From the NCBI GenBank assembly GCA_024628785.1, contig CP102404.1:496001-560000 (forward strand): 64,000 bases of DNA, written 5' to 3'. A model generated the notes under the pieces. That model worked only from the letters and a program-made list of their open reading frames with translations, ran no database searches and was not told the DNA's origin. Positions 5,143 through 29,654 of the stretch are shown in pieces. Position numbers and translations under genes: made by a program. How positions within the stretch are numbered: position 1 is the stretch's first letter; every line of letters begins with the position of its first letter. The stretch is from Fusobacteria bacterium ZRK30 (lineage in GTDB: Bacteria > Fusobacteriota > Fusobacteriia > Fusobacteriales > Fusobacteriaceae).

Positions 5143-5364
5143 AAAATAACCTCCTAAAATTATTGACATCTTTAGAATTATACCATAAACTTGAATTAGA
5201 ATAGAAAATTATAAATATATTATTTTTTTCACTTGTTTGGAAGTAGAATATTTGTTATTATATAACAAGGTTAAAATTATAATTGTTCAAATTTAAAGGA
5301 AGAAATTACTTAAAAAGATAAATATAATGAACGTTTAGATTAAAATTATTGAGGAGGAGTTAGA

Positions 5365-6585
5365 ATGCATAACATTGAAAAAATAAGTGAAGATATTTTT
5401 TGGGTAGGGGTAAACGATAGAAAAACTCAAAGATTTGAGAACTATCTACCATTAGATAAGGGAGTTTCTTATAACTCATACCTTATTTTGGATGAAAAGG
5501 TGGCACTTATCGATACAGTAGAGATTGGAACCAGTGAAAACTTTATAGAGAAAATAGAGGGTGTATTACAAGGGAGAAAGATAGATTATTTAATAATAAA
5601 CCATATGGAACCAGACCATGCAGGAGCTATAAAGGATGTAATCAGACTATATCCTGATATTACTCTAGTAGGAAATGTAAAGACTTTTCCAATGTTAGAT
5701 GCATTTTATGACTGCTCAAAGGAACGTTGTGAAAAGAACAGATTGGTAGTTAAGGAAGGGGATACCTTAGAATTAGGTAAACATACCCTTACATTTGCTA
5801 TGGTACCGATGGTACATTGGCCGGAATCTATGGTTTCATTTGAATCTACTACAGGAACATTATTTTCAAATGATGCATTTGGAAGTTTTGGTTCATTAGA
5901 CGGTGGGATCTTTGATGACCAGTTAAACCTTAGTTTCTATGAGGATGAGATGAGAAGATATTATTCAAATATCGTAGGTAAGTATGGAGCTCCTACACAG
6001 GCTGCTATAAAAAAATTAGGAGGATTGGATATCAAGTGTATCGCTCCTTGTCACGGTCCGGTGTGGAGATCAGATATACCTAGAGTATTAGGTCACTACG
6101 ATGCATGGTCTAAGATGGAACCTGAAGCAGAAGGAGTAGTAATAGTTTATGGTTCAATGTATGGAAATACAGAAAAGATGGCAAATGCAATTGCAAGACA
6201 GCTGTCTAAAGAGGGAATCATCGATATAAAGTTATATGATGCATCTAAAACAGATCACTCATATATAATCAGTGATATATGGAAATATCAAGGATTAATT
6301 ATAGGATCTTGTTCACATAACAATGCAGTTTATCCAAAAGTTCAACCACTTTTATCTAAACTGCAAAACTACGGATTAAAAAACAGATATTTAGGTATCT
6401 TTGGAAATATGATGTGGAGTGGAGGAGGAGTAAAAGGAATACAAGCTTTTGCTGACTCACTTAGAGGAATAGAGGTTGTAGGAGAATCTGTAGAAGTAAA
6501 AGGAACTCCAAGATCGGAAGATTATACAAAGTTAGAAGCTATTGCAACTGCTATGGCAGATAAGTTAAAAGAAGCAAGAAAATAA
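5365..6585 (+). CDS. fprA: Flavodiiron protein (A-type, FprA)
   Basis: A 406-residue cytoplasmic enzyme that reduces O2 and/or NO to protect anaerobes. The N-terminal beta-lactamase-like domain has the di-iron ligand pattern H80-x-E82-x-D84-H85 (NHMEPDHAG), His151 (MVHWPES) and Asp170 (FSNDAFG), with a further His in CIAPCHGPVW. The C-terminal flavodoxin-like domain starts near 255 with the FMN loop YGSMYGNTEKMA. No rubredoxin domain is fused, so an external rubredoxin or NADH donor is expected. GAGGAGG precedes the ATG; monocistronic with its own terminator. Confidence 0.95.
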   Translation: MHNIEKISEDIFWVGVNDRKTQRFENYLPLDKGVSYNSYLILDEKVALIDTVEIGTSENFIEKIEGVLQGRKIDYLIINHMEPDHAGAIKDVIRLYPDITLVGNVKTFPMLDAFYDCSKERCEKNRLVVKEGDTLELGKHTLTFAMVPMVHWPESMVSFESTTGTLFSNDAFGSFGSLDGGIFDDQLNLSFYEDEMRRYYSNIVGKYGAPTQAAIKKLGGLDIKCIAPCHGPVWRSDIPRVLGHYDAWSKMEPEAEGVVIVYGSMYGNTEKMANAIARQLSKEGIIDIKLYDASKTDHSYIISDIWKYQGLIIGSCSHNNAVYPKVQPLLSKLQNYGLKNRYLGIFGNMMWSGGGVKGIQAFADSLRGIEVVGESVEVKGTPRSEDYTKLEAIATAMADKLKEARK

Positions 6586-6640: not shown

Positions 6641-6679
6641 TGTTTAAGAAATTATCGTTAAAAATTATAAAATTCTAGA

Positions 6680-6706
6680 TTATGCCTATCTGGATGCAGC
6701 GTCACG
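6680..6706 (+). repeat. Dispersed intergenic repeat, copy 2
   Basis: This 27-base stretch matches 29628-29654 in 23 positions, and weaker similarity continues about 30 bases further left (TTAAAA, TATAAAA and CTAG blocks). Its 3' end (GCAGCGTCACG, 6696-6706) is also the outer arm of the left inverted repeat of the accessory element. Confidence 0.5.
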
Positions 6707-6732
6707 AAGATATAGTAGAATTTTAGTGTCAA
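6696..6732 (+). repeat. Left terminal inverted repeat of the element
   Basis: Two blocks, GCAGCGTCACG and TTTAGTGTCAA, are separated by 15 bases. The complement of 15384-15420 has GCAGCGTGACG, 15 bases, and TTTAGTGTCAA: 21 of 22 block positions match with identical spacing. The equal spacing makes chance unlikely. No target duplication is visible outside. Confidence 0.55.
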
Positions 6733-6746
6733 GGAATTGACATTAA
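6723..6746 (+). promoter_or_regulatory. 10-bp hairpin at the left end of the element
   Basis: TTAGTGTCAA, loop GGAA, then TTGACATTAA: ten pairs with one G-T. A T9 run follows 11 bases later. It includes the inner arm of the left inverted repeat. It could be a terminator, a Rep- or transposase-binding site, or part of a replication origin. Confidence 0.45.
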
Positions 6747-6839
6747 GATTTTACTATTTTTTTTTATGAATTTATAGTAAATATTTGTGGGATAGTTACT
6801 CACCATCTTCTTAATTAAAATATTTTGGAGGTGTTTGAT

Positions 6840-6995
6840 ATGAAATATAAATCTAAAATTGTGTATTCTGAGGAACATTTAAAAGAAGAAATGGAAAAAT
6901 GTGAAAAACTTGGTCTTACTTTTTTGATTTTTAAAGGGATTGGAGCGGGAAAAGGAGCTTATAAAATAACAACTTCTGAATTTAGGGAAGATTAA
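6840..6995 (+). CDS. Small element protein, 51 residues
   Basis: ATG at 6840 lies 8 bases after GGAGGTG and encodes a 51-residue soluble protein with a charged N-terminal helix (EEHLKEEMEKCEKLG) followed by a beta-prone segment TFLIFKGIGAGKGAYKITT. No family recognised. As first gene of the element, ahead of the hairpin region and Rep, it might be a regulator of replication or an early protein. That is a guess from position only. Confidence 0.6.
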   Translation: MKYKSKIVYSEEHLKEEMEKCEKLGLTFLIFKGIGAGKGAYKITTSEFRED

Positions 6996-7033
6996 AGTAG
7001 TTTGGGGAATTATAAAAGTTATGAGAGGAACTC

Positions 7034-7133
7034 AAGGCAGCACTCATTAAAAAAGCTGTCTTCGTAATATTAAATTTTTAAAGGTTTGGAAAATAGTAAT
7101 TTCCCACCTTTTTTTTTAACCTCGAAAGAGGTT
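7034..7133 (+). promoter_or_regulatory. Three-hairpin intergenic region upstream of rep (origin candidate)
   Basis: Three consecutive hairpins fill this gap. (1) 7034-7062: AAGGCAGC with GCTGTCTT. (2) 7080-7111: AAAGGTTTGGAAA with TTTCCCACCTTT, followed by a T run, which is a plausible terminator. (3) 7118-7133: AACCTC-GAAA-GAGGTT. Stacked hairpins next to an HUH Rep gene are the usual place for a double-strand origin or packaging signal in ssDNA phages. The nick site cannot be identified by eye. Confidence 0.45.
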
Positions 7134-7203
7134 TAAAGGCTTTCCTTGTCTCAACGTATTAATTCAGAGAAAGTCTTATTTAATAATAAAAAAGGGTGAT
7201 TCT

Positions 7204-8469
7204 ATGTCAGATATTGCTATTATTACTGGAAAAATTAAAAAAACAGGAAATGTATTTCAATATTCAAACTATGATACTGGAGTAGTTACAGGGGAAAAAA
7301 AGTATGACTATAAAGAAGATGGGAAATATTGGAAAAAAAAGCATATTATGGGTTCTCTTCCAATCTATGAAGAAGTCAAAGTGGGTCGTGGAGAAAAAAA
7401 AGATCTGTCACAATTACAAAAAGGAGAGCTATATTCATATTTAAATAATAAATCCATTAACATCAGGAGAAAGATAGCAGAATTTAAAGATTTATACTTA
7501 TGTAATATTTTAAAATATCAAGATCATAAAGGGCAGGCTTGTTTACCAAAGATGATAACTATTACCTTTAAAAATGATATTAAAGATTATGAAGTGGCAG
7601 TTTTAGAAATGGATAAAACAATTAAAAGGATTCAATATTTTGTCCAGACAAGAATTGATAAAAATTTTAAATTAAGAGCTGTAGGAGTAAGAGAAGTTCA
7701 TAAAGAGAAAAGAGAGGGATATCACTTTCATTTTATAGCATTTAATTTACCATACATAGATCAAGATAAATTTAAAACATTTGGTGAAAAAGAATCGAAT
7801 AACCGTGGAAGGATTGAAATATCTGTATTAAAGCAATTTAAAAATAAATATATTGATTATAGTACAGATGGAGTAGAAGAAAAAATAAGTTTTATTAAAG
7901 ATCCAATTTCATATCTTTCTAAGGCTCTATTTTATTTATCTAAGGAATTAGATGATCTATATAAAATAGATTACTCAATGGATCTTCGAGAAGATAAAGA
8001 ATTAATGGCAAAATTAAAAAATGAACTTAACAGAAAAATATTATTCAAAGTTGGGAAATTAATTAAACCGGAAGTCATTAATCTGTACTCAAATAAAGAG
8101 TTTGAATATGAATTAAATAAGGCATTTGATAACTATAAATTTAAAGATCATTTCAGTTTCAATACTGAATTTCTCGGATGGATAGATTTATATAAATTTG
8201 TAGATCATAGAGGTAAAAGTGATCTTGTGGATATTGTACTGGATACTCTGGGCTTTAGTTATGAATATATAGAAGAAAATGAAAATATATATAAATTAAA
8301 ACATTATGAAATAAATAAATTTTTTATAAATTATAAAGAAAATAAATTAATGTATATTGATAACAATAATTTTATAGAAATAGATAAAAATCTATTTAAT
8401 CATATTTTAGATATCAATAATTTAAGTAATGAAATAAAAGAATTTATAATAAAAAATAAGGGGGAATAA
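7204..8469 (+). CDS. HUH-type rolling-circle replication initiator
   Basis: A 421-residue protein with all three signatures of an HUH endonuclease: motif 1 PKMITITFKND (115-125), motif 2 YHFHFIAF with His174-x-His176, and motif 3 SYLSKALFYLSKE with Tyr237-xxx-Lys240 and Tyr244-xxx-Lys247. It should nick one strand at the origin through a tyrosine and start rolling-circle synthesis. No helicase motifs follow; the C-terminal 170 residues are Asn/Lys/Ile-rich and not recognised. A GGGTG ribosome site lies 7 bases before the ATG. The hairpin cluster immediately upstream is the expected origin. Confidence 0.85.
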   Translation: MSDIAIITGKIKKTGNVFQYSNYDTGVVTGEKKYDYKEDGKYWKKKHIMGSLPIYEEVKVGRGEKKDLSQLQKGELYSYLNNKSINIRRKIAEFKDLYLCNILKYQDHKGQACLPKMITITFKNDIKDYEVAVLEMDKTIKRIQYFVQTRIDKNFKLRAVGVREVHKEKREGYHFHFIAFNLPYIDQDKFKTFGEKESNNRGRIEISVLKQFKNKYIDYSTDGVEEKISFIKDPISYLSKALFYLSKELDDLYKIDYSMDLREDKELMAKLKNELNRKILFKVGKLIKPEVINLYSNKEFEYELNKAFDNYKFKDHFSFNTEFLGWIDLYKFVDHRGKSDLVDIVLDTLGFSYEYIEENENIYKLKHYEINKFFINYKENKLMYIDNNNFIEIDKNLFNHILDINNLSNEIKEFIIKNKGE

Positions 8470-8471
8470 AA

Positions 8472-8729
8472 ATGAAAATGTTTTTACAAGGTGCAACGGT
8501 TAAGGAGTTAAAAATTAGTGAATGGGAAGGAAAAGAATATTTTTCAATTTTATTAAATGGTGGTCTTGTATCTCCAAAAGTAAAATTAACACATGAGCAA
8601 TTTAAAAAGTTAAAAAAAGATGGTATTGGTCATAACTCAGTATTAAACATAGAATTTGATGTTCAATATTCAGATAAAACAAAATGTGTTCACAATGGTA
8701 ATAAATTAGTATCTTATGAATTAGTGTAA
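8472..8729 (+). CDS. Small beta-rich protein, candidate ssDNA-binding protein
   Basis: An 85-residue protein starting two bases after the rep stop codon; its GGGGG ribosome site lies within the end of rep. Predicted strands alternate (TVKELKISEW, YFSILLNGG, VLNIEFDVQY, KLVSYELV), consistent with a small OB-like fold. Size and position right after Rep match the helix-destabilising ssDNA-binding proteins of filamentous phages (85-90 residues), but no sequence motif proves this. A ten-residue basic helix (EQFKKLKKDG) is present. Confidence 0.7.
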   Translation: MKMFLQGATVKELKISEWEGKEYFSILLNGGLVSPKVKLTHEQFKKLKKDGIGHNSVLNIEFDVQYSDKTKCVHNGNKLVSYELV

Positions 8730-8785
8730 TGAAAATAGAAAATAGATTATAGGGGTGTTGGTTTTTATGGATTTTGGGTTTATTT

Positions 8786-8974
8786 ATGAATGAATTTGAA
8801 AAAGAATTTTTGAAAAAATTTGAAAAAGAAAATCCTAAAATTTTTGAGATGGCAACATTTTTAATTTACAAAATGAATAGATTTAACAGGGATTTAAAAA
8901 TTTTGATTAATTTATTAATTGGTTTAATTGTTCCAATTTATTTATTAATTTTAAATTTTATATTAAAAAAGTAA
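8786..8974 (+). CDS. Small single-span membrane protein of the element
   Basis: A 62-residue protein: charged N-terminal half (MNEFEKEFLKKFEKENPK) and one long hydrophobic stretch at the C-terminus (ILINLLIGLIVPIYLLILNF) ending in KK. The start is uncertain. The GGGGTG site at 8752 fits better to an ATG at 8767 that opens an 8-codon frame (MDFGFIYE) ending in TGA across the next ATG; 8786 would then be reached by translational coupling. It could be a minor coat or membrane protein, or a holin for the endolysin. Neither is proven. Confidence 0.6.
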   Translation: MNEFEKEFLKKFEKENPKIFEMATFLIYKMNRFNRDLKILINLLIGLIVPIYLLILNFILKK

Positions 8975-8986
8975 TGTGTAGAGGAG

Positions 8987-11059
8987 GTGTTTAAATCGGC
9001 TAATTATGTGGGTTATCAATATACTTTTAATGCTACTAGTTCCGAAATGTCGGCTTGGTCTTCTTCTCATTATGTTACTGCTTTAAATGAGGCTTTTGAG
9101 GCGCTTCATGTTGCTTTGAGAAAAAAATATGCTGATAGAACTGGTATTTATACAGATGGTAACAAAAAATTTTATCGTAATTATAATTATAATAGTATTA
9201 CTTCTTATGATAGATGGATTGTTATGGATCAAAATAATTCTTATTTAGAGGATATTTCTTTAATTTTTAAAACTTCTGATGGTGCTACGCAGTGGTACTG
9301 TCCAAATAGTTTTGGAAACGTTTATCCCCCTAAAATAAATGAAACATTTGAGTTTACTCCTGATACTGGTGGTGGTCTTCCGGGAGAACCTTTTACCCCT
9401 CCTATACCTAGTAATTCTGAAAAAATAGAAGATATCCCTTTTTATGAAAATTTATTGAAGAATGGTGAAATTGGCTCTTTTGATGATCTTACTCAAGCTG
9501 AATTTGATTATTTACAAGATGAGGTCCAAAAAGGAGAAGTTGGTTTATTTGATACTTTAGTCAATGTAGCAAAAGATTTTTTCATGGGAAATTCTGACTC
9601 CGATGCATTCAGAGATGTAAATATTTCTTATGATGGTGATAACCCAGACATAGTAGCATATTATGCAGATAATGGACTGGATACTTCAAAATCATATAAT
9701 ATTAATATGGATGGGATAAGAGTAGGTTATGATACTGGAGATGGTTTTGTTCCTATTCTTGAAAATAGTGGTATAAGTAAAAATGGTTCTTATTCTGTTT
9801 CAAAGGAAAGTAAAAATAATTTCCTTTCGAATGGTGATATATTTGCACTTCATACTGTAAATGGAACTCTTGGAAATCTCGGGAACCCTGTTCCTGGGGC
9901 AATTGCAGTTTCGGCAGCAGTTGTTGCAAATGATTATTTAAATAAAATTTTAGACCCAGTACAACAAAATCAATTAGATTTATTAAAAAGTGGTTATAGT
10001 TATGTTGTTAATAAGGCTCAAAATTTATTTAATGGTTTTACCAGTACAGGAGATCGATCAAAAGATTTATTCAATCATGCTGTTCAGAGTGAAGCTTATA
10101 CAAAGGGTATTACTAATGTTGTTCAAGGGGGTGCTAGTATGTCAAGTATTGGTGTTGATTTAAAAGGTCAAAGTATTCCTATTGAATTACCAACATCTGG
10201 TATTGCTTTAACTATTCCAACAACTGGGGTTGCTCTTAATGTACCAACTACTGGAGTTAATTTAAATATTCCAACTGCAACTAACATTCCTCTAGGTATT
10301 CCGACAACTGGAGTGGATCTAAAAGTACCTACAACTGGAGTTAGCTTAGATATGGATGGGAAAAGTATTCCTATTTCAACTGGTGGAGAGGTCGCTTTAA
10401 AAGTAGCTGATACAACAAAAATAAAACTTGATACAACAGAATCAACTTTAAAATTGGAAGGATTAAATAATGATTGGTTAGCATTATTAAAATTATTAGT
10501 AACTCGATTTACTCATATTAATACTTTAAACCCTGATGAAGCATTAGATTTAAAAAACAAATTAGAAATTTATCAAAAAGAGTATGCATATGAATCTAGT
10601 GCTAGAGTTTTAGAGGGAAATGTAGCAAGGTGGCGACAAAAAGAATATGAAACAACTATAACAGATAATAATATTCCTCTAGACAAAATTAATAGAGATG
10701 TAAAAGCTTGGCAAGGTATGCACTCTCTTAATCCTGCAGGAACTATAACAGATACAATAGGCAATGATATTCCAATATTTAAAGGAATAATACCAGCTAT
10801 TCAAGGTGTTGGTATGTTAGATGCAATAAGGGAAACTCTTATTGACAGAGGGAATGAAAATGTTTTAGCTAGGGCAAAGGCAAAATCTAAAACAAAAGAT
10901 GATGAGGATGAAAAAAAACTTGTAGATAATTTATTTTCTATACTTGGAGTTAAATTAAATGCACCTATTCCAACTGCTGAGGATTTAAGAAAATCTCCGG
11001 GATTAGCTGCTATTTATAATGCTATTTCTAATTTATCAATTTCAAATACTGATAATTAA
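8987..11059 (+). CDS. Large element protein with nonapeptide-repeat shaft
   Basis: A 690-residue protein, not recognised. Visible parts: an aromatic, T-rich-coded N-terminal domain (1-120), a Gly/Pro hinge TGGGLPGEPFTPPIP near 130, a mixed middle, six tandem nine-residue units of consensus [IV]-P-T-T-G-V-x-L-x near 400-460, and a helical charged C-terminal third. The repeats should form a narrow beta-solenoid or spiral, as in virus fibres or spikes, so host attachment is a reasonable guess. The start is odd: the only in-frame GTG at 8987 overlaps the GAGGAGG site itself, and the codon at proper spacing is AAA or TCG. Other genes of the element begin ATG-TCG, so the start may be mutated. Confidence 0.7.
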   Translation: MFKSANYVGYQYTFNATSSEMSAWSSSHYVTALNEAFEALHVALRKKYADRTGIYTDGNKKFYRNYNYNSITSYDRWIVMDQNNSYLEDISLIFKTSDGATQWYCPNSFGNVYPPKINETFEFTPDTGGGLPGEPFTPPIPSNSEKIEDIPFYENLLKNGEIGSFDDLTQAEFDYLQDEVQKGEVGLFDTLVNVAKDFFMGNSDSDAFRDVNISYDGDNPDIVAYYADNGLDTSKSYNINMDGIRVGYDTGDGFVPILENSGISKNGSYSVSKESKNNFLSNGDIFALHTVNGTLGNLGNPVPGAIAVSAAVVANDYLNKILDPVQQNQLDLLKSGYSYVVNKAQNLFNGFTSTGDRSKDLFNHAVQSEAYTKGITNVVQGGASMSSIGVDLKGQSIPIELPTSGIALTIPTTGVALNVPTTGVNLNIPTATNIPLGIPTTGVDLKVPTTGVSLDMDGKSIPISTGGEVALKVADTTKIKLDTTESTLKLEGLNNDWLALLKLLVTRFTHINTLNPDEALDLKNKLEIYQKEYAYESSARVLEGNVARWRQKEYETTITDNNIPLDKINRDVKAWQGMHSLNPAGTITDTIGNDIPIFKGIIPAIQGVGMLDAIRETLIDRGNENVLARAKAKSKTKDDEDEKKLVDNLFSILGVKLNAPIPTAEDLRKSPGLAAIYNAISNLSISNTDN

Positions 11060-11073
11060 ACGGGGGGGATTTT

Positions 11074-11667
11074 ATGTCGGGGTCGGTAGGTGATTTTGGA
11101 AAAAAGTTATTACTTATGTCATTGATTGATAATACTATGGATACTACGGGGGATTTTACATCACAAAAGATAAGAGAATTTATTAGGGAAAAAACAGGGG
11201 TAGAAATAGAAAATGAGTTTGTAGAAGATTGGTTAGCAGGATTTAATGCGATTACCTCTATGATGGTTACATCAGCTGTTATTGCTAGTACAACTGCTGT
11301 TTCAGGATTTTTAATTGATAAAGCTACATTATCTAATTTTAAAAACCTTTTATTTAATTTACAAAATTTTGCGTCTACTGTTAGTGGTATGGCTTCTGGA
11401 GGTTCTCATATAAATACTGAAATAATTCTAGGGAAATCACAAGGTTCATTGTCAGATCAAAAATTAGCTCATTATACATATATGAATACAGCAATTCAAG
11501 CAAGAGGAGCTGTTTTACATAATGGTTCTATGGTTACACAATCTATGACGGCAGGAATGAATTATGAGACTGTTCGTTCGAATAATGAAAAAGTTACAAT
11601 TCCACAAGGTCAAAAGCTTATGATGGTAATGGAAGAATTAAAAAACATGGCAAGGCAGGGGATATAA
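11074..11667 (+). CDS. Unrecognised element protein with hydrophobic middle, 197 residues
   Basis: It follows the 690-residue gene by 14 bases with a GGGGGGG site before ATG. A soluble N-terminal part (1-70, helical, charged) precedes a long apolar segment (AITSMMVTSAVIASTTAVSGFLI, about 75-97), then a Ser/Gly/Thr-rich polar half. The single hydrophobic stretch could span a membrane or be buried in a virion. No Walker A motif, so it is not the inovirus assembly ATPase. Function unknown; probably part of the virion or of its assembly. Confidence 0.65.
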   Translation: MSGSVGDFGKKLLLMSLIDNTMDTTGDFTSQKIREFIREKTGVEIENEFVEDWLAGFNAITSMMVTSAVIASTTAVSGFLIDKATLSNFKNLLFNLQNFASTVSGMASGGSHINTEIILGKSQGSLSDQKLAHYTYMNTAIQARGAVLHNGSMVTQSMTAGMNYETVRSNNEKVTIPQGQKLMMVMEELKNMARQGI

Positions 11668-12063
11668 ATGGGTGCTATCGTTACTAGTGATAAAATAGAG
11701 GGTATTATTTATGAAATAGGTTTATTGACCAAAGAAGACAGTAGAAATTATAATATTAAATTTTTAACTAATCAGATCTTAACTGATTTAGATATAAAAA
11801 CAAAATTAGAAACAATAACGGGATGTTATGTTGAAAGTATAAAAAGAGTTACCAAATATAAAAGAATTAAAACTCAAAGTAATACAGTACCTAAAGGTAT
11901 AAAAATTACAGGTAGATATATTTTGAATGGGTTACAGGTAAGAACAGATAGTTTATTCTTTCCTTTGGTTTTAAAAGCATATCAGGAACCGCAACAATTA
12001 GAAAATCAATTGAAGGAGTTTTTTGGTAATGATTTTCAGGTAGTCGCTTATACACAGTATTAA
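11668..12063 (+). CDS. Unrecognised element protein, 131 residues
   Basis: Its ATG directly follows the previous stop codon (TAA-ATG), so the two are translationally coupled. The product is a soluble alpha/beta protein with a basic middle (ESIKRVTKYKRIKTQS) and no hydrophobic span. No known domain seen. The position among presumed structural genes suggests a virion or connector role. Confidence 0.6.
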   Translation: MGAIVTSDKIEGIIYEIGLLTKEDSRNYNIKFLTNQILTDLDIKTKLETITGCYVESIKRVTKYKRIKTQSNTVPKGIKITGRYILNGLQVRTDSLFFPLVLKAYQEPQQLENQLKEFFGNDFQVVAYTQY

Positions 12064-12099
12064 TACTGTTATAAAATAAATTTAACGGGGGTAAAAAAC

Positions 12100-12501
12100 A
12101 TGTCGATTGTAGAAACAGGTGCAAGTTTTCAAATGAAACAAGGGTCTATGGTAGATTCAATATTTGTTCCAAAGGTACAAACTGGAGAGATATCTTCTAT
12201 TTTAGGAGCATTGGAAAAAACGGCTCTTATGAAATGTAAGGGATATACACAAACTTTTGAGAATGATACCTATACAGGTAATTATTTTTATGCTTTACCT
12301 ACTCCACCTGCACAGATATTCAGAAGAAAAATTGTTACTTTTAAATTAACAAATGCAGCAGGACAGAATATTTTTGTAAGAGGAGATCTTCCTTATAATA
12401 TAGTTGATACAGGTAATTATCAAACTATGGCAGATGCTTTTGTAACTAAAACATTGAGTTTTGGAAAAGTAGAATCTTGTACTTGGGATATTAACGGGTA
12501 A
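12100..12501 (+). CDS. Unrecognised beta-rich element protein, 133 residues (capsid candidate)
   Basis: An ACGGGGGT site lies 8 bases upstream of ATG. The sequence is dominated by predicted beta strands with Thr, Gly, Phe and Tyr (YTQTFENDTYTGNYFYAL, RKIVTFKLTN, NIFVRGDLPYNIVDTG) and few charged helices, the composition of a small structural protein. It is followed by a gene of similar size and style with the same type of ribosome site. The pair are the best candidates for coat proteins, but no fold can be assigned by eye. Confidence 0.6.
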   Translation: MSIVETGASFQMKQGSMVDSIFVPKVQTGEISSILGALEKTALMKCKGYTQTFENDTYTGNYFYALPTPPAQIFRRKIVTFKLTNAAGQNIFVRGDLPYNIVDTGNYQTMADAFVTKTLSFGKVESCTWDING

Positions 12502-12531
12502 TAAAAAAATAATTTAAATGGGGGTAAAAAG

Positions 12532-12954
12532 ATGGCGAAATTTGTTTTAAATAATTTAGATGTTAAAGTCGTAGATTTTTCAGATACTAAAAGTTCGTTT
12601 TCAGTGTTTGGACAAGTTCAGCAGGTAGATTTTAATGAGATAGAAGAAGTAATAACAGCTCAATCGGCTTGGACTGGAATGGCTGTAATTGGGAAAAATG
12701 AAAGATATGTTTATGATGATTTAGACTCTATAATTGTAGAACCTAGTGCAAGCAAGAAGTTAGTATCTGGTGAGTTACTGGTAGAAAGAGAAAATGCAGG
12801 ATTTGTTTATATCAGTGGGAAGTTCCCGGCAGATTCAGCGGACCTTAATTTGATTTTAGATGATATGCTTACAGGAACTAAAACTATAGGTGGTGCGGTG
12901 ATTAATTCTATTCGACCCCAACTTAGAGCTAACAATATTAGAACAAGATCTTAA
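12532..12954 (+). CDS. Unrecognised beta-rich element protein, 140 residues (capsid candidate)
   Basis: Starts behind ATGGGGGT and ends the main rightward gene block; a strong terminator follows. Residues 1-60 are beta-rich (VKVVDFSDTKSSFSVFGQVQ), 60-120 mix strands and short helices, and the tail is basic (RPQLRANNIRTRS), which could contact DNA inside a particle. It may be a paired coat or minor structural protein with its upstream neighbour. No family recognised. Confidence 0.6.
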   Translation: MAKFVLNNLDVKVVDFSDTKSSFSVFGQVQQVDFNEIEEVITAQSAWTGMAVIGKNERYVYDDLDSIIVEPSASKKLVSGELLVERENAGFVYISGKFPADSADLNLILDDMLTGTKTIGGAVINSIRPQLRANNIRTRS

Positions 12955-13013
12955 TCAAATTCAGATTAAAGAGCTTTGCATCGATTGGTGTTTGAAATAG
13001 CGTAAAAAAATAA

Positions 13014-13042
13014 CCCTCTCGCCTGTGGCGAGGGGATTTTTA
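13014..13042 (+). terminator. Terminator of the structural gene block
   Basis: CCCTCTCGCC, TGT, GGCGAGGGG gives a GC-rich stem followed by ATTTTTATTT. It ends the transcript that starts upstream of rep and separates it from the endolysin gene. Confidence 0.8.
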
Positions 13043-13069
13043 TTTGGAGCTATATTTCTTATGGTAATT

Positions 13070-13198
13070 TTATTTTTTAGGTTTTTTAGGACTAAAAAAT
13101 AGTCTTAATATGATGTAAAAAATTATTACTCCTATTAACACTGGAGTTAGTCCATTATATTTTATTGATAAATAAAAACTTTTAAAAAAATCAAACAT
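13070..13198 (-). CDS. 42-residue single-span membrane peptide on the opposite strand
   Basis: ATG at 13198-13196 lies 6 bases after AGAGGTGATT on the minus strand. The peptide has an aromatic N-terminus (MFDFFKSFYLS), one membrane span (TPVLIGVIIFYIILRLFF) and a basic tail SPKKPKK. It is the only leftward gene in the element and is divergent from the endolysin. The size and topology suit a small holin-like, antiholin or toxin-type peptide, but nothing proves a role. Confidence 0.5.
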   Translation of the reverse strand: MFDFFKSFYLSIKYNGLTPVLIGVIIFYIILRLFFSPKKPKK

Positions 13199-13283
13199 TT
13201 CAATCACCTCTGGAATTTAATTGTTTTATATCTTAATTATAATCTATTTTTATTTATTGTCAAAAATTTAATAGGAGGTCAAT

Positions 13284-13670
13284 ATGAAAAAAGTATCTAA
13301 AAGAACATTAAAAAATTTATCAGGAGTTAATTCAAAACTTGCTTTAATTGTAGGTATGGTACTAGCGAGGGGTAAAGTTGATTTAACTGTTATTAGTGGA
13401 CTTAGAACTGCTCAGAAACAAAATAAAATATTTTTAGATGGGAGATCTCAATTAGATGGATATAATAAGATCTCATATCATCAAACAGGGAATGCAATTG
13501 ATTTTATTCCCTATCCATTTGTGATTAATGATTGGAGAGACGTAAATAGATTTGTGTTGATAGGTCAGGAGTTAAAGTTAGCAGCTAAACATCTAGGATT
13601 TAATTATTCCTATGGTGGAGATTGGAAAACCTTTAAGGACTACGGACATTTTGAACTTCATGAAAAATAA
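13284..13670 (+). CDS. M15 peptidase endolysin
   Basis: A 128-residue zinc peptidase of the VanY/CwlK type. The metal triad is seen as His66-x6-Asp73 (SYHQTGNAIDF) and His122 (YGHFEL), and ISGLRTAQKQNKIF matches the upstream conserved block (S-G-x-R-T-x-x-x-Q). Phage members cut the L-Ala-D-Glu or D-Ala bond of the cell-wall peptide. There is no signal peptide or wall-binding domain, so it would need a holin. AGGAGG precedes the ATG, with a TATAAT box at 13238-13243. A lysis gene argues against a filamentous, extruded virion. Confidence 0.88.
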   Translation: MKKVSKRTLKNLSGVNSKLALIVGMVLARGKVDLTVISGLRTAQKQNKIFLDGRSQLDGYNKISYHQTGNAIDFIPYPFVINDWRDVNRFVLIGQELKLAAKHLGFNYSYGGDWKTFKDYGHFELHEK

Positions 13671-13679
13671 ATTGAGTAA

Positions 13680-13870
13680 CGACCAGTGGACAGGAGTTTG
13701 TCTTTGATGCATAGGCAAAATAATGACCGTAGGGAATAGCACCCGCAGGGGAAACCTTCAGCAATGAAATTCTAGACCAATTAAAATGGAATGTTATAGT
13801 TAAAATTTGCCATAGTAGACCCGTAAGGGCGAGATGATAAGAAAGGAATAAAATTGAATGAACCTTTATA
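13680..13870 (+). ncRNA. Structured, GC-richer segment upstream of the transposase
   Basis: This stretch is visibly richer in G and C than its surroundings and has no reading frame. Seen: CCC-GTAA-GGG (GNRA tetraloop, near 13825), CC-GTAG-GG and CCC-GCA-GGG mini-hairpins, and a distant GGCAAA/TTTGCC pairing that would close a multibranch structure. It could be a remnant of a self-splicing intron, an untranslated RNA of the insertion sequence, or the phage packaging/origin region. No intron domain V or reverse transcriptase was found, so the class is open. Confidence 0.35.
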
Positions 13871-13977
13871 ATTGGATTAATTGTAAATACTACCATTAGG
13901 GAGAGATATAATCTTAAAAATATGATATAAAGAAATTTATAGAAAAAAATAAATAATAGCTAAGGAGGATATTTATT

Positions 13978-15108
13978 ATGAATACTTCTGATATTAAATT
14001 ATTTGAGGTAGCTATAAGAGCTATGGAGAGGGTTGTAAATGAAATATTGTATTATGAGAGAGAAGAGTTCCTATATGAGCAGAGAGAGGTTTATATCGAG
14101 AATAGGGGAAATGGATTTAATGATAGAGATTTTAAATTAAGTAATAGTATGGTATTAAGTATAAAGGTTCCTAAAGTTCGTAAAAACTCTAGGGACCTTA
14201 TTTATTCTATTTTTGAAAAATATAAAAGAAATAGCAATGAATTTGAGATTAATTTAGAAACTTTTTATTCATCTCGGATGTATGAGAAAGATATAGTCAA
14301 AATGTTAGGGATTTCTAAAATATCTCAATGTAGAAAAGACAAGATTTTAGAAAAATATATTCAAAAATATGAGGATTTCTTGGCTAAAACTAAAAAAAAG
14401 AATTATGACATAATTAAGTTAGATTCAACTTTTAAAGGTAAAATGAGGAATAAAACTAAATATAATATATACTTTGCCTGGGGATTCTATACAGAAAATA
14501 ATATAGTAAAAAAAGAGTGCTTATATTTCCATATTGACCAGAAAAATGAGAATAAGAAGGAATGGGAAAAGGTCATAAATTATCTAATTAGTAATGTTAA
14601 TTTAAAAAATACAAAACTACTTATCAGTGATATGTTTAACTCATTAAAAACTTCTTTACATGATATTAAAAAATATACTCCTGAACTAAAAAATATATTG
14701 TTTCAAAATTGTATCTGGCATAGACTGCACTCTATTTTTAATGTGTCTATTTTACCCATGAAAATAAAACGACCTTTATTCAGTACATTTTATTCGCAAT
14801 TTAAAGAAGTAAAAGATATAGAACTTCTAAAAGAATCACTTGATCTATTTAAAAAAATGGAGTTTAAAAAAAATAAAGATATAAATGGAATGTTAAATGT
14901 GCACTATGAAGATAATTTTAATTATCTAAGGGTATACTATGATCTAAAACAAAAAGGATACACAATAAAAAATCTTATGCAAAATATGGATATTGAAAGT
15001 TTCCATGCAGATCTAAAATATTATTTAAATAAAACAGTAAATTATACGAATTCAAATATCTTAAAAATGCGAATAATGATGTTTTTAGAGCAAAAACAAT
15101 ATATTTAG
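13978..15108 (+). CDS. IS256/Mutator-like DDE transposase
   Basis: A 376-residue protein. The order of features matches the Mutator superfamily: RGNGFNDRDFKL..VLSIKVPKVR near 43-68, catalytic Asp149 (IIKLDSTF), Asp218 (LLISDMFNSL), the C-x2-H motif Cys245/His248 (QNCIWHRLHSI), and Glu340 (DIESFHADL). It is diverged from typical IS256 members but all catalytic positions are present. AAGGAGG precedes the ATG. No inverted repeats close to this gene alone were found; the nearest matching pair encloses the whole 8.7 kb element, so it may mobilise the phage genome. Confidence 0.8.
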   Translation: MNTSDIKLFEVAIRAMERVVNEILYYEREEFLYEQREVYIENRGNGFNDRDFKLSNSMVLSIKVPKVRKNSRDLIYSIFEKYKRNSNEFEINLETFYSSRMYEKDIVKMLGISKISQCRKDKILEKYIQKYEDFLAKTKKKNYDIIKLDSTFKGKMRNKTKYNIYFAWGFYTENNIVKKECLYFHIDQKNENKKEWEKVINYLISNVNLKNTKLLISDMFNSLKTSLHDIKKYTPELKNILFQNCIWHRLHSIFNVSILPMKIKRPLFSTFYSQFKEVKDIELLKESLDLFKKMEFKKNKDINGMLNVHYEDNFNYLRVYYDLKQKGYTIKNLMQNMDIESFHADLKYYLNKTVNYTNSNILKMRIMMFLEQKQYI

Positions 15109-15344
15109 AAAAAAGCTATTTATATAAAATTTTAGAGTTTATCTATACTATACAATTTTTAGTTTGCCTGGTCTCTCGATCTATCTCTAAAATAGTCTGT
15201 TTGAATAGAAAAAGACTGATTTAGAAAAAATAGTGTTTACAATGACTTAACAACGTCTATTTAAAAATTCATAAAATAAGTGTGTTTTAGGGATGGTCAT
15301 CTATAAAATTAATAATGTACATTCATATTTTGAATAATTAAAAA

Positions 15345-15377
15345 AAGCATAGAAAAACCAAGGGGTTTCTATACTTT
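15345..15377. terminator. Bidirectional terminator between transposase and htpG
   Basis: AGCATAGAAAAACC, loop AAGG, GGTTTCTATACT, with A7 on the left and T-rich sequence on the right. In the minus direction it ends in T7 and would stop htpG; in the plus direction it would stop the transposase. The rest of 15109-15422 is AT-rich and holds nothing else but the right inverted repeat. Confidence 0.65.
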
Positions 15378-15383
15378 TAATTT

Positions 15384-15420
15384 TTGACACTAAATTTAGG
15401 TATTGCATACGTCACGCTGC
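15384..15420 (-). repeat. Right terminal inverted repeat of the element
   Basis: TTGACACTAAA, 15 bases, CGTCACGCTGC: the inverted counterpart of 6696-6732. Its outer end is two bases from the htpG stop codon, so insertion happened right behind that gene. Because the likely htpG terminator lies inside the repeat, the true boundary might be further left. Confidence 0.5.
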
Positions 15421-29627: not shown

Positions 29628-29654
29628 TTATGCCTAATTGGATGGAACGTCACG
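29628..29654 (+). repeat. Dispersed intergenic repeat, copy 3
   Basis: It differs from 6680-6706 at 4 of 27 positions, and the weaker similarity continues upstream. Here the 3' end is the palindrome GGAACGT-C-ACGTTCC. Confidence 0.5.

Follow-up and report, generated by a model that had tools for sequence, protein, structure and literature searches.

What is the block of same-strand genes, most of them without a recognisable family, that lies in contig CP102404.1 of Fusobacteria bacterium ZRK30? The window analysed here is a 64,000-nucleotide stretch of that contig (positions 496,001 to 560,000 of the forward strand), in which a first-pass annotation made from the sequence alone had placed, at 6696-15420, an undescribed prophage resembling single-stranded DNA (ssDNA) phages. 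This element is, in our view, probably a temperate phage that belongs to an unnamed new group, has a small and likely ssDNA genome, and integrates by means of its own transposase. The gene set is as the annotation gave it: all of its open reading frames (ORFs) are present on the + strand, among them a HUH-type replication initiator (Rep; PF23343), an M15 endolysin (PF13539, phrog_465) and a series of proteins without a known family. Its statement that the element has neither a Zot/pI ATPase nor a known capsid protein is borne out at the sequence level.

Related elements and their gene order

The group has at least six related elements, including that of the window. L006 and L076 both lie in G007, a congener; L007, in G004 of the same genus, is identical to DAOUPY010000037.1, a Fusobacteriaceae metagenome-assembled genome; L063 is found in another genus (G011), and L077, which is partial and cut by a contig end, in another family (G097). 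When Rep was searched against 99 other genomes, two held strong relatives; a Rep profile, run on 98 genomes of the phylum, yielded one weak match more (in G001). Matches to the transposase occur in 3 of 61 genomes, the own genome included, and with a profile of the protein of 204-211 amino acids (aa), three of 98 genomes gave strong hits, at four places in all (E <= 2.3e-18). This family matched 10 of the 98 genomes overall, the window genome not among them, and we take the other seven (E 0.0017-0.0094) as chance coiled-coil matches.

The elements share a gene order that begins with Rep in the window, L006 and L007, or with a 488-492-aa protein in its place in L063 and L076, followed by a small protein in the position of an ssDNA-binding (SSB) protein. 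Next come a DUF1353 gene (L006, L007, L076) or an M15 gene (L063) with a 61-75-aa one-helix membrane protein, then one to four larger proteins, the last of 473-718 aa, and a protein of 197-217 aa. A protein of 124-139 aa, one or two of 130-173 aa and the transposase (window, L006, L063, L077) complete the series. With four further complete elements and one partial element showing like gene order, the window genes are not a chance string of ORFs. L006 and L076 have 6.4 kb in common at 84% DNA identity, downstream of different genes in the Rep position, which points to an exchange of modules. The L007 contig is complete at 8,973 bp, and its two ends repeat 141 bp exactly (title 'k141 ... cov_49'), as expected of a circular molecule of 8,832 bp.

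Several further features were observed in the relatives. L076 (6422-7396 and 8154-16384) is a second group element in G007, and a gene for a 324-aa XerD/XerA-like tyrosine recombinase adjoins it, which may replace the transposase or be a host gene. In L063, three small opposite-strand genes, apparently cargo, stand between the Rep-position and SSB-like genes (6662-7677), and L007 carries three extra genes (88, 152 and 105 aa; 5250-6278) in the M15/transposase place of other elements. A 51-64-aa opposite-strand gene lies inside the structural block of L006 (15198-15383), L076 (9848-10042) and L063 (13162-13317); its product, with a hydrophobic start and two cysteine pairs, is zinc-ribbon-like by eye. 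The weak Rep match in G001 belongs to L011 (G001:C186), a 3.2-kb contig that we rejected as a group member: it holds a 239-aa Rep-like ORF (E 1e-7 to the window Rep) and a 330-aa ORF resembling a second replication gene, no other group gene was recognised on it, and it is probably a small plasmid of the same genus.

Ends, target site and transposase

The window element is a single transposon of 8,703 bp (6707-15409), delimited by terminal inverted repeats (Table 1); its exact ends and a transposase gene both lie within the coordinates of the first-pass annotation, which had missed them. The inverted repeats are imperfect, with the window ends matching at 16 of 30 positions (137 of 20,000 shuffles reach 16 matches) and the L006 ends at 19 of 30, and the identical 11-base core in both repeats is TTTAGTGTCAA. 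When up to two mismatches are allowed, a single additional and poorer copy of this core turns up in the window element, 18 bases inward from the left end, and none near the left side of the transposase gene. The unit that the inverted repeats enclose is therefore the whole 8,703-bp element. L063 is likewise flanked as a whole by inverted repeats, its own, of 38 bp (74%, E 4e-5).

Related transposases occupy the same place in four of the six elements (window, L006, L063 and L077), covering three genera and two families. The window transposase matches phrog_2331 (transposase, 2.2e-09) and the NCBIfam family transpos_IS256; it has no Pfam match of its own, a PF00872 match (1.6e-16) being present in the L006 transposase only. 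The L006 and L063 proteins match the NCBIfam IS256 family at E 1e-18 and 7e-22, both below the curated cut-off, and that of L077 is 37% identical to the window's (E 2.6e-44). When phages were searched by tblastn with the transposase, five records of Staphylococcus phages matched, at 24% identity (best E 9e-6).

These observations bear on whether a phage remnant merely lies beside an ordinary, unrelated insertion sequence (IS) of IS256 type, which we regard as the least probable of the explanations weighed here. Selfish and virus-domesticated transposases are described as indistinguishable by sequence alone (PMC6813254), but the inverted repeats flank the whole 8.7-kb element in the window and the whole 9.7-kb element in L006 rather than the transposase gene, the related transposases keep their place in four elements, and no second copy was found in the own genome at the DNA level (E <= 0.001, 40 of 240 candidates scored) or the protein level (E <= 1e-10).

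The element sits in a host repeat resembling repetitive extragenic palindromes (REP). A 22-base pattern from the left half of this repeat (up to three mismatches) occurs 41 times in the own genome and 39 times in the congener G007, counts that include occupied copies, and the reversed control pattern occurs in neither. The palindrome GCAACGT-C-ACGTTGC (up to two mismatches) follows the pattern in 26 of 30 copies examined (15 per genome), the window's occupied copy being one of the four without it. The window and L006 elements are centred in two different palindrome copies, with CGTCACG doubled in both. IS256 elements duplicate 8-9 bp of their target; the window and L006 copies show 7 bp.

The gene adjoining the window insertion we take to be htpG, and that adjoining the L006 insertion presumably is cdsA; both loci are element-free in the other congeners compared. 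The empty cdsA locus carries an intact palindrome in G002 and a near-intact one in G003 and in the own genome (G000), the empty htpG locus a near-intact palindrome in G004 and the left half alone in G007. No such repeat is present at htpG in G002, G003, G005 and G006, nor at cdsA in G001, and the cdsA locus of G006 is masked by N. No palindrome was seen at L076.

The REP-like repeat itself, ATTATGCCTATCTGGATGCAACGTCACGTTGC, is dispersed between genes (41 matches in the own genome), often with a T-run after it; a diverged core lies at window position 29640 and a perfect core in another genus (L063:17038). At the cdsA locus of G000 (L022), the empty repeat, GGATGCATACGTCACGTTGC, is one base longer than other empty copies and resembles the right junction of the window element (GCATACGTCACG), possibly as an excision footprint or by chance. 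Two candidates were set aside: GCAGCGT.ACG as the terminal inverted repeat, since element-free loci show it to be host palindrome, and L060 (G004 C318) as a second element, as it is merely a repeat copy.

Replication, lysis and candidate virion genes

Rep matches PF23343 (REP_ORF2-G2P) at E 3.8e-07 (30.7 bits, cut-off 27.8), carries HFH at residues 174-176 and YLSK at 237 and 244, and is 92% identical to its counterpart in L006 and 57% to that in L007. A hairpin followed by AGGCTTTCCTTGTC directly upstream of Rep is kept in these three elements and is likely the nick site. The SSB-like label that the first-pass annotation gave to the 85-aa protein is confirmed by no family, the best match being PC4 at E 0.07, below the cut-off. 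Between the endolysin and transposase genes, a conserved non-coding stretch is shared with L006, L007 (83% over 65 bp, E 4e-11) and L076; Rfam gave chance-level matches only, and the stretch, present in L007 and L076 without a transposase, could be a second-strand origin or a packaging signal.

Third-position T-richness is a trait of ssDNA phages. The element without its transposase has a pooled T fraction at third codon positions of 0.456, compared with a host mean of 0.349 (standard deviation 0.037, n = 40 window ORFs). By gene, the 690- and 133-aa genes lie above all 40 host ORFs and the 85-aa gene below nine of them.

Further evidence comes from clustered regularly interspaced short palindromic repeats (CRISPR). 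Of nine short high-identity DNA matches picked by eye, one proved to contain a CRISPR array when put to a crude 20-mer test, and the rest were taken as AT-rich chance. This array, in the congener G006 (L107, G006:C4; repeat GTTTCAATCCTTATTATATTGGATTATGTATTTTGAT), has 17 readable spacers, with Cas1 (PF01867, 2e-32) on the same contig, and its spacers were compared with the six elements, their shuffles and 40 kb of host DNA. One spacer matches the Rep gene at 31/35 positions in the window and 30/35 in L006, and another the DUF1353 gene of L076 at 35/37, while the best matches of these two had 10-14 mismatches in 20 shuffles of each of the six elements and 12 in host DNA. A third matches L006 at 27/35 (8 mismatches; controls 12-14 in shuffles and 14 in host DNA), a weak match because another AT-rich spacer (at 389) reached 7 mismatches in the shuffled control. 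The other 14 of the 17 match none of the six elements beyond chance. As plasmids are also targeted, the spacers do not separate a phage from a plasmid.

Two genes point to lysis of the host cell. The one-helix membrane protein, with homologues in L006, L007 and L076, is likely a holin; its gene overlaps the end of the DUF1353 gene in these three relatives, and the window has the same membrane family without DUF1353. In L063 a different, unrelated-looking transmembrane gene overlaps the M15 gene. TtaP, a DUF1353 protein, has been reported to be a phospholipase A2, an activity that its authors also expect of other such proteins (PMC11525133). The DUF1353 protein of the relatives is likely such an enzyme; that of L006 also matches phrog_1158 (2.3e-21), whose label, tail assembly chaperone, we discount. 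We read the membrane protein with either M15 or DUF1353 as a lysis cassette with exchangeable lysins. M15-like DNA stretches, 67-68% identical to the endolysin gene, were also observed at two other places in the own genome (G000:C1:125888-126243 and G000:C2:1489318-1489554).

The lysis genes matter for two further explanations. The element could be a non-viral integrative element or rolling-circle plasmid, in which Rep and the SSB-like protein replicate it, the transposase inserts it and the remaining proteins serve the surface or maintenance; we regard this as unlikely, although it is the strongest of the competing readings. Beyond the relatives, the only database matches of Rep are to Rep of two Fusobacterium plasmids of about 5 kb, a circular relative without a transposase exists (L007), and no virion fold has been shown. 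However, no relaxase, mobilisation, conjugation, toxin-antitoxin or maintenance family, the kind of match that the first-pass annotation had named as telling against its reading, was found among the proteins scanned (Pfam, PHROGs and NCBIfam), the endolysin comes with a holin-like partner, and the one-direction gene block keeps its order over two bacterial families. A phage satellite, self-replicating and self-moving yet packaged by a helper phage, is improbable. Its small size and the lack of a recognisable capsid would suit a satellite, and the M15-like stretches elsewhere in the genome suggest that lysins are common to other elements; but the window element shows no terminase subunit, capsid-size redirector, tyrosine integrase or repressor family (Pfam, PHROGs), has lysis genes of its own, and would carry several genes beyond the needs of helper packaging.

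The candidate virion proteins are encoded downstream of the membrane protein. The 690-aa protein is likely a receptor-binding fibre or spike, and its C-terminal region is homologous to 629- and 473-aa proteins of the other sub-type of the group (hhalign probability 96.4, E 1.3e-09). The profile link of the 197/203-aa proteins to the 202-217-aa family is weaker (probability 75.8, E 2.3e-05); the 197-aa protein has no blastp match at E 0.05 among the relatives, was not recovered by the profile search of that family, and has no match beyond its own genome in 100 genomes. Between the window and L007, the 131/132-, 133/141- and 197/203-aa pairs agree in position and size at 21-26% global identity, and blastp links none of them at E 0.05. 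Clear relationships hold for the small proteins of L006, L076, L063 and L077, and in L077 the neighbouring 144- and 134-aa proteins are paralogous (E 3.6e-07). Paralogy of the 133- and 140-aa proteins found no support (hhalign probability 0.2), and MAFFT alignments forcing these two and the 147-aa proteins together were not used as evidence.

Family searches gave no significant Pfam or PHROGs match for the 690-, 197-, 131-, 133- and 140-aa proteins and no significant NCBIfam match for the 197-, 133- and 140-aa proteins. Searching solved structures by sequence with the 147-aa and 204-aa families returned nothing below E 0.15, and a tblastn search of phages with the 147-aa protein gave partial matches only (E 0.6). 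No microvirus VP1/F capsid match was found among the window element proteins (Pfam, PHROGs), and no terminase, portal, HK97 capsid or packaging redirector among the proteins scanned; an L063 376-aa protein matches a baseplate family at 0.0076, below the cut-off. As to a double jelly-roll capsid, there was no PHROGs match, tblastn of Rep and the 690- and 211-aa proteins against the phage collection gave none, and the structural models were of low confidence. No Walker A motif is present in six-frame ORFs of at least 60 codons in the window element, nor in the relatives' scanned proteins, with one exception (GVNTEGKS, within the repeats of the L007 718-aa protein).

The last result bears on a divergent inovirus without a recognisable pI/Zot ATPase, whose major coat would be the 61-75-aa membrane protein and whose pIII would be the 690-aa protein. 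The order Rep, SSB, transmembrane protein and large attachment protein recalls filamentous phages, and each of five elements has one protein of 30-90 aa with one transmembrane domain. Structural proteins of that size and kind are an inovirus feature (PMC6813254). Yet pI is described there as the only gene conserved in 56 known inovirus genomes, no Walker A motif was found in window-element ORFs of at least 60 codons, the endolysin and DUF1353 point to lysis, and the transmembrane gene adjoins and pairs with lysin genes; we consider an inovirus highly improbable.

Table 1. Features of the window element, with positions counted from the first letter of the window
Feature	Position	Strand	Basis
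Host REP-like repeat, left part, into which the element inserted	6679..6706	+	Genome pattern search
Direct repeat CGTCACG (7 bp, target duplication), left copy	6700..6706	.	
Whole element	6707..15409	+	Junctions compared with L006 and element-free congener loci
Left terminal inverted repeat (..TTTTAGTGTCAA)	6707..6733	+	
Candidate rolling-circle origin: hairpin CCTCGAAAGAGG, then conserved AGGCTTTCCTTGTC	7115..7160	+	
HUH-type replication initiator Rep, 421 aa	7204..8469	+	PF23343; relatives in L006, L007
Protospacer in the Rep gene	7501..7535	-	31/35 match to G006 spacer
Small protein, 85 aa, in SSB position	8472..8729	+	Homologues in L006, L063; putative function from position and size
One-helix membrane protein, 66 aa (TTG start; ATG at 8786)	8774..8974	+	Kyte-Doolittle 2.50 over 19 residues
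690-aa protein (GTG start), TTG-type repeats	8987..11059	+	L007 718 aa, E 3.6e-49
197-aa protein, hydrophobic stretch, candidate minor virion or pilot-like protein	11074..11667	+	
131-aa small protein, candidate coat-module protein	11668..12063	+	L007 132 aa at same position, 25% global identity
133-aa small protein, candidate coat protein	12100..12501	+	L007 141 aa at same position, 26% global identity
140-aa small protein, candidate coat protein	12532..12954	+	L007 130 aa, E 8.5e-08
M15 peptidase, endolysin, 128 aa	13284..13670	+	PF13539 2.7e-11; phrog_465 endolysin 1.7e-34
Conserved non-coding stretch, candidate cis element	13693..13760	+	Alignment
Divergent IS256-family DDE transposase, 376 aa, proposed integrase	13978..15108	+	NCBIfam, PHROGs; aligned with three relatives
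Right terminal inverted repeat (..CTAAATTTAGTGTCAA)	15383..15409	-	
Direct repeat CGTCACG (7 bp), right copy	15410..15416	.	

A number of results weigh against a self-transposing temperate phage. For integration, the window transposase matches transpos_IS256 (E 2.3e-18) at 66 bits, below the curated cut-off of 150; L007 and L076 have no transposase, and the 292-aa ORF of L077 misses its N-terminal ~75 residues and gave no family match. A REP-palindrome target is shown for two of the four transposase-bearing elements: L063 lies outside the palindrome, with a perfect core ~70 bp past its right end, and none was seen at L077. For replication, the Rep-position proteins of L063 and L076 are mutually related, match no known family and are Rep by position only, and the window Rep weakly resembles that of the Fusobacterium plasmids NC_003091.1 and NZ_CP077109.1 (E 8e-3 and 1e-2).

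For the virion, the 140/130-aa pair alone gives a significant match between the small proteins of the window and L007, and the small proteins of the two sub-types have no demonstrable homology, including the 133- or 140-aa protein against the 147-aa family. Structure prediction (AlphaFold2, two-sequence alignments) failed, with a mean predicted local distance difference test score of 35.3 for the 133-aa protein (with L012 141 aa) and 43.8, again low confidence, for the 140-aa protein (with L012 130 aa). The two proteins had been named by the first-pass annotation as the best coat candidates and, with such models, stay candidates; both models end beta-beta-helix-beta, a likeness noted and not used. 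With the model of the 140-aa protein, a fold search yielded 255 matches at E <= 10, none of them at E <= 0.001. Neither Rep nor the 690-aa, 211-aa and L063 Rep-position proteins had a relative among 50,697 phage records, and scans of IMG/VR, which depend on short peptide patterns, found none; plasmids held no relative of the 211-aa protein.

Proposed life cycle and comparison with known systems

Taking these results together, we still favour a temperate phage. Of the prophage first proposed, a coherent, mobile and probably viral element stands, given the integrated copies, the circular relative, the lysis genes, the spacers and the T-richness, whereas the virion and its ssDNA stay predictions. 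The description as a small lytic phage that was caught in the prophage state should be modified, as an IS256-type transposase of its own between terminal repeats suggests an element built to integrate.

We infer a virion, ssDNA within it, roles for the proteins without families and an active transposase, in the following cycle. Rep would start rolling-circle replication of the circular form, and the SSB-like protein would hold the single strand. The virion would consist of the ~690-aa fibre-like protein, the helical protein of ~200 aa and two or three smaller ones (124-173 aa), without a packaging ATPase, and the cell would be opened by the putative holin together with the M15 peptidoglycan hydrolase or the DUF1353 protein. 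Integration would be carried out by the element's IS256-type DDE transposase acting on the two terminal inverted repeats, instead of by XerCD at dif; in the window and L006, it would have inserted the element into the centre of a host palindrome, making the 7-bp duplication.

More tentatively, and with the balance somewhat against it, the group may form a lineage of small lytic ssDNA phages in Fusobacteriota that is new at family level; its coat would consist of the two or three 124-173-aa proteins in a fold new to viruses, and lysogeny would come about by transposition, at least partly into REP palindromes. Such a 'transposing ssDNA phage' would combine Mu-like integration with rolling-circle replication. 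If the temperate-phage reading is right, Fusobacteriota gain a group of small phages, in which an ssDNA phage becomes a prophage without XerCD/dif, by self-transposing integration; in two cases this is directed to intergenic repeats, in which an insertion would be expected to harm little. The capsid candidates of the group have no known relatives.

Temperate non-filamentous ssDNA phages are described already (PMC9719478, PMC3091885), so the kind is known. Among the matches listed for ssDNA phages of Fusobacterium or Fusobacteriota, no description of such a group appeared, and no paper was found on an ssDNA phage with an IS256 transposase or on ssDNA viruses with a DDE transposase and XerC; as far as these sources extend, the lineage, gene set and integration route were not found described, and there is a real chance of more novelty.

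One close comparison is with PhiCjT23 and FLiP (Finnlakeviridae or related) and with phi18:4 and Omtje (Obscuriviridae), ssDNA phages that, like the element, have genomes of 6.5-9.2 kb with a Rep and mostly unknown genes (PMC9719478, PMC11946311). The same sources describe phi18:4 as encoding a peptidoglycan hydrolase and having its genes all point one way, and PhiCjT23 as temperate with prophage relatives. The element's proteins that were tried gave no sequence match to these phages, and no double-barrel capsid protein was found; PhiCjT23-like prophages are described as using XerC/XerD at dif, whereas the group studied here has its own transposase. The Microviridae proviruses of Bacteroidetes (BMVs) are also small, integrated ssDNA phages of anaerobes (PMC3091885), described there as most likely using dif sites and encoding no recognisable recombinase; no microvirus capsid family was found in the element. 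Inoviridae genomes resemble the element in the gene order mentioned above, but the element lacks the pI/Zot ATPase and has lysis genes. Transposases, as in the element, occur in inovirus genomes as well (PMC6813254). With the plasmids NC_003091.1 and NZ_CP077109.1, of ~5 kb, the likeness concerns Rep (29.6% identity, residues 59-211), the one protein compared. With respect to the target, IS elements such as ISRm5 of the IS256 family, IS1397 and IS621 are listed as associated with, or inserting into, dispersed extragenic palindromes, ISRm5 among the REP-associated ones (PMC1525189). Such a REP-targeting IS is bare, whereas the transposase described here is part of an entire phage-like genome, which it seems to mobilise.

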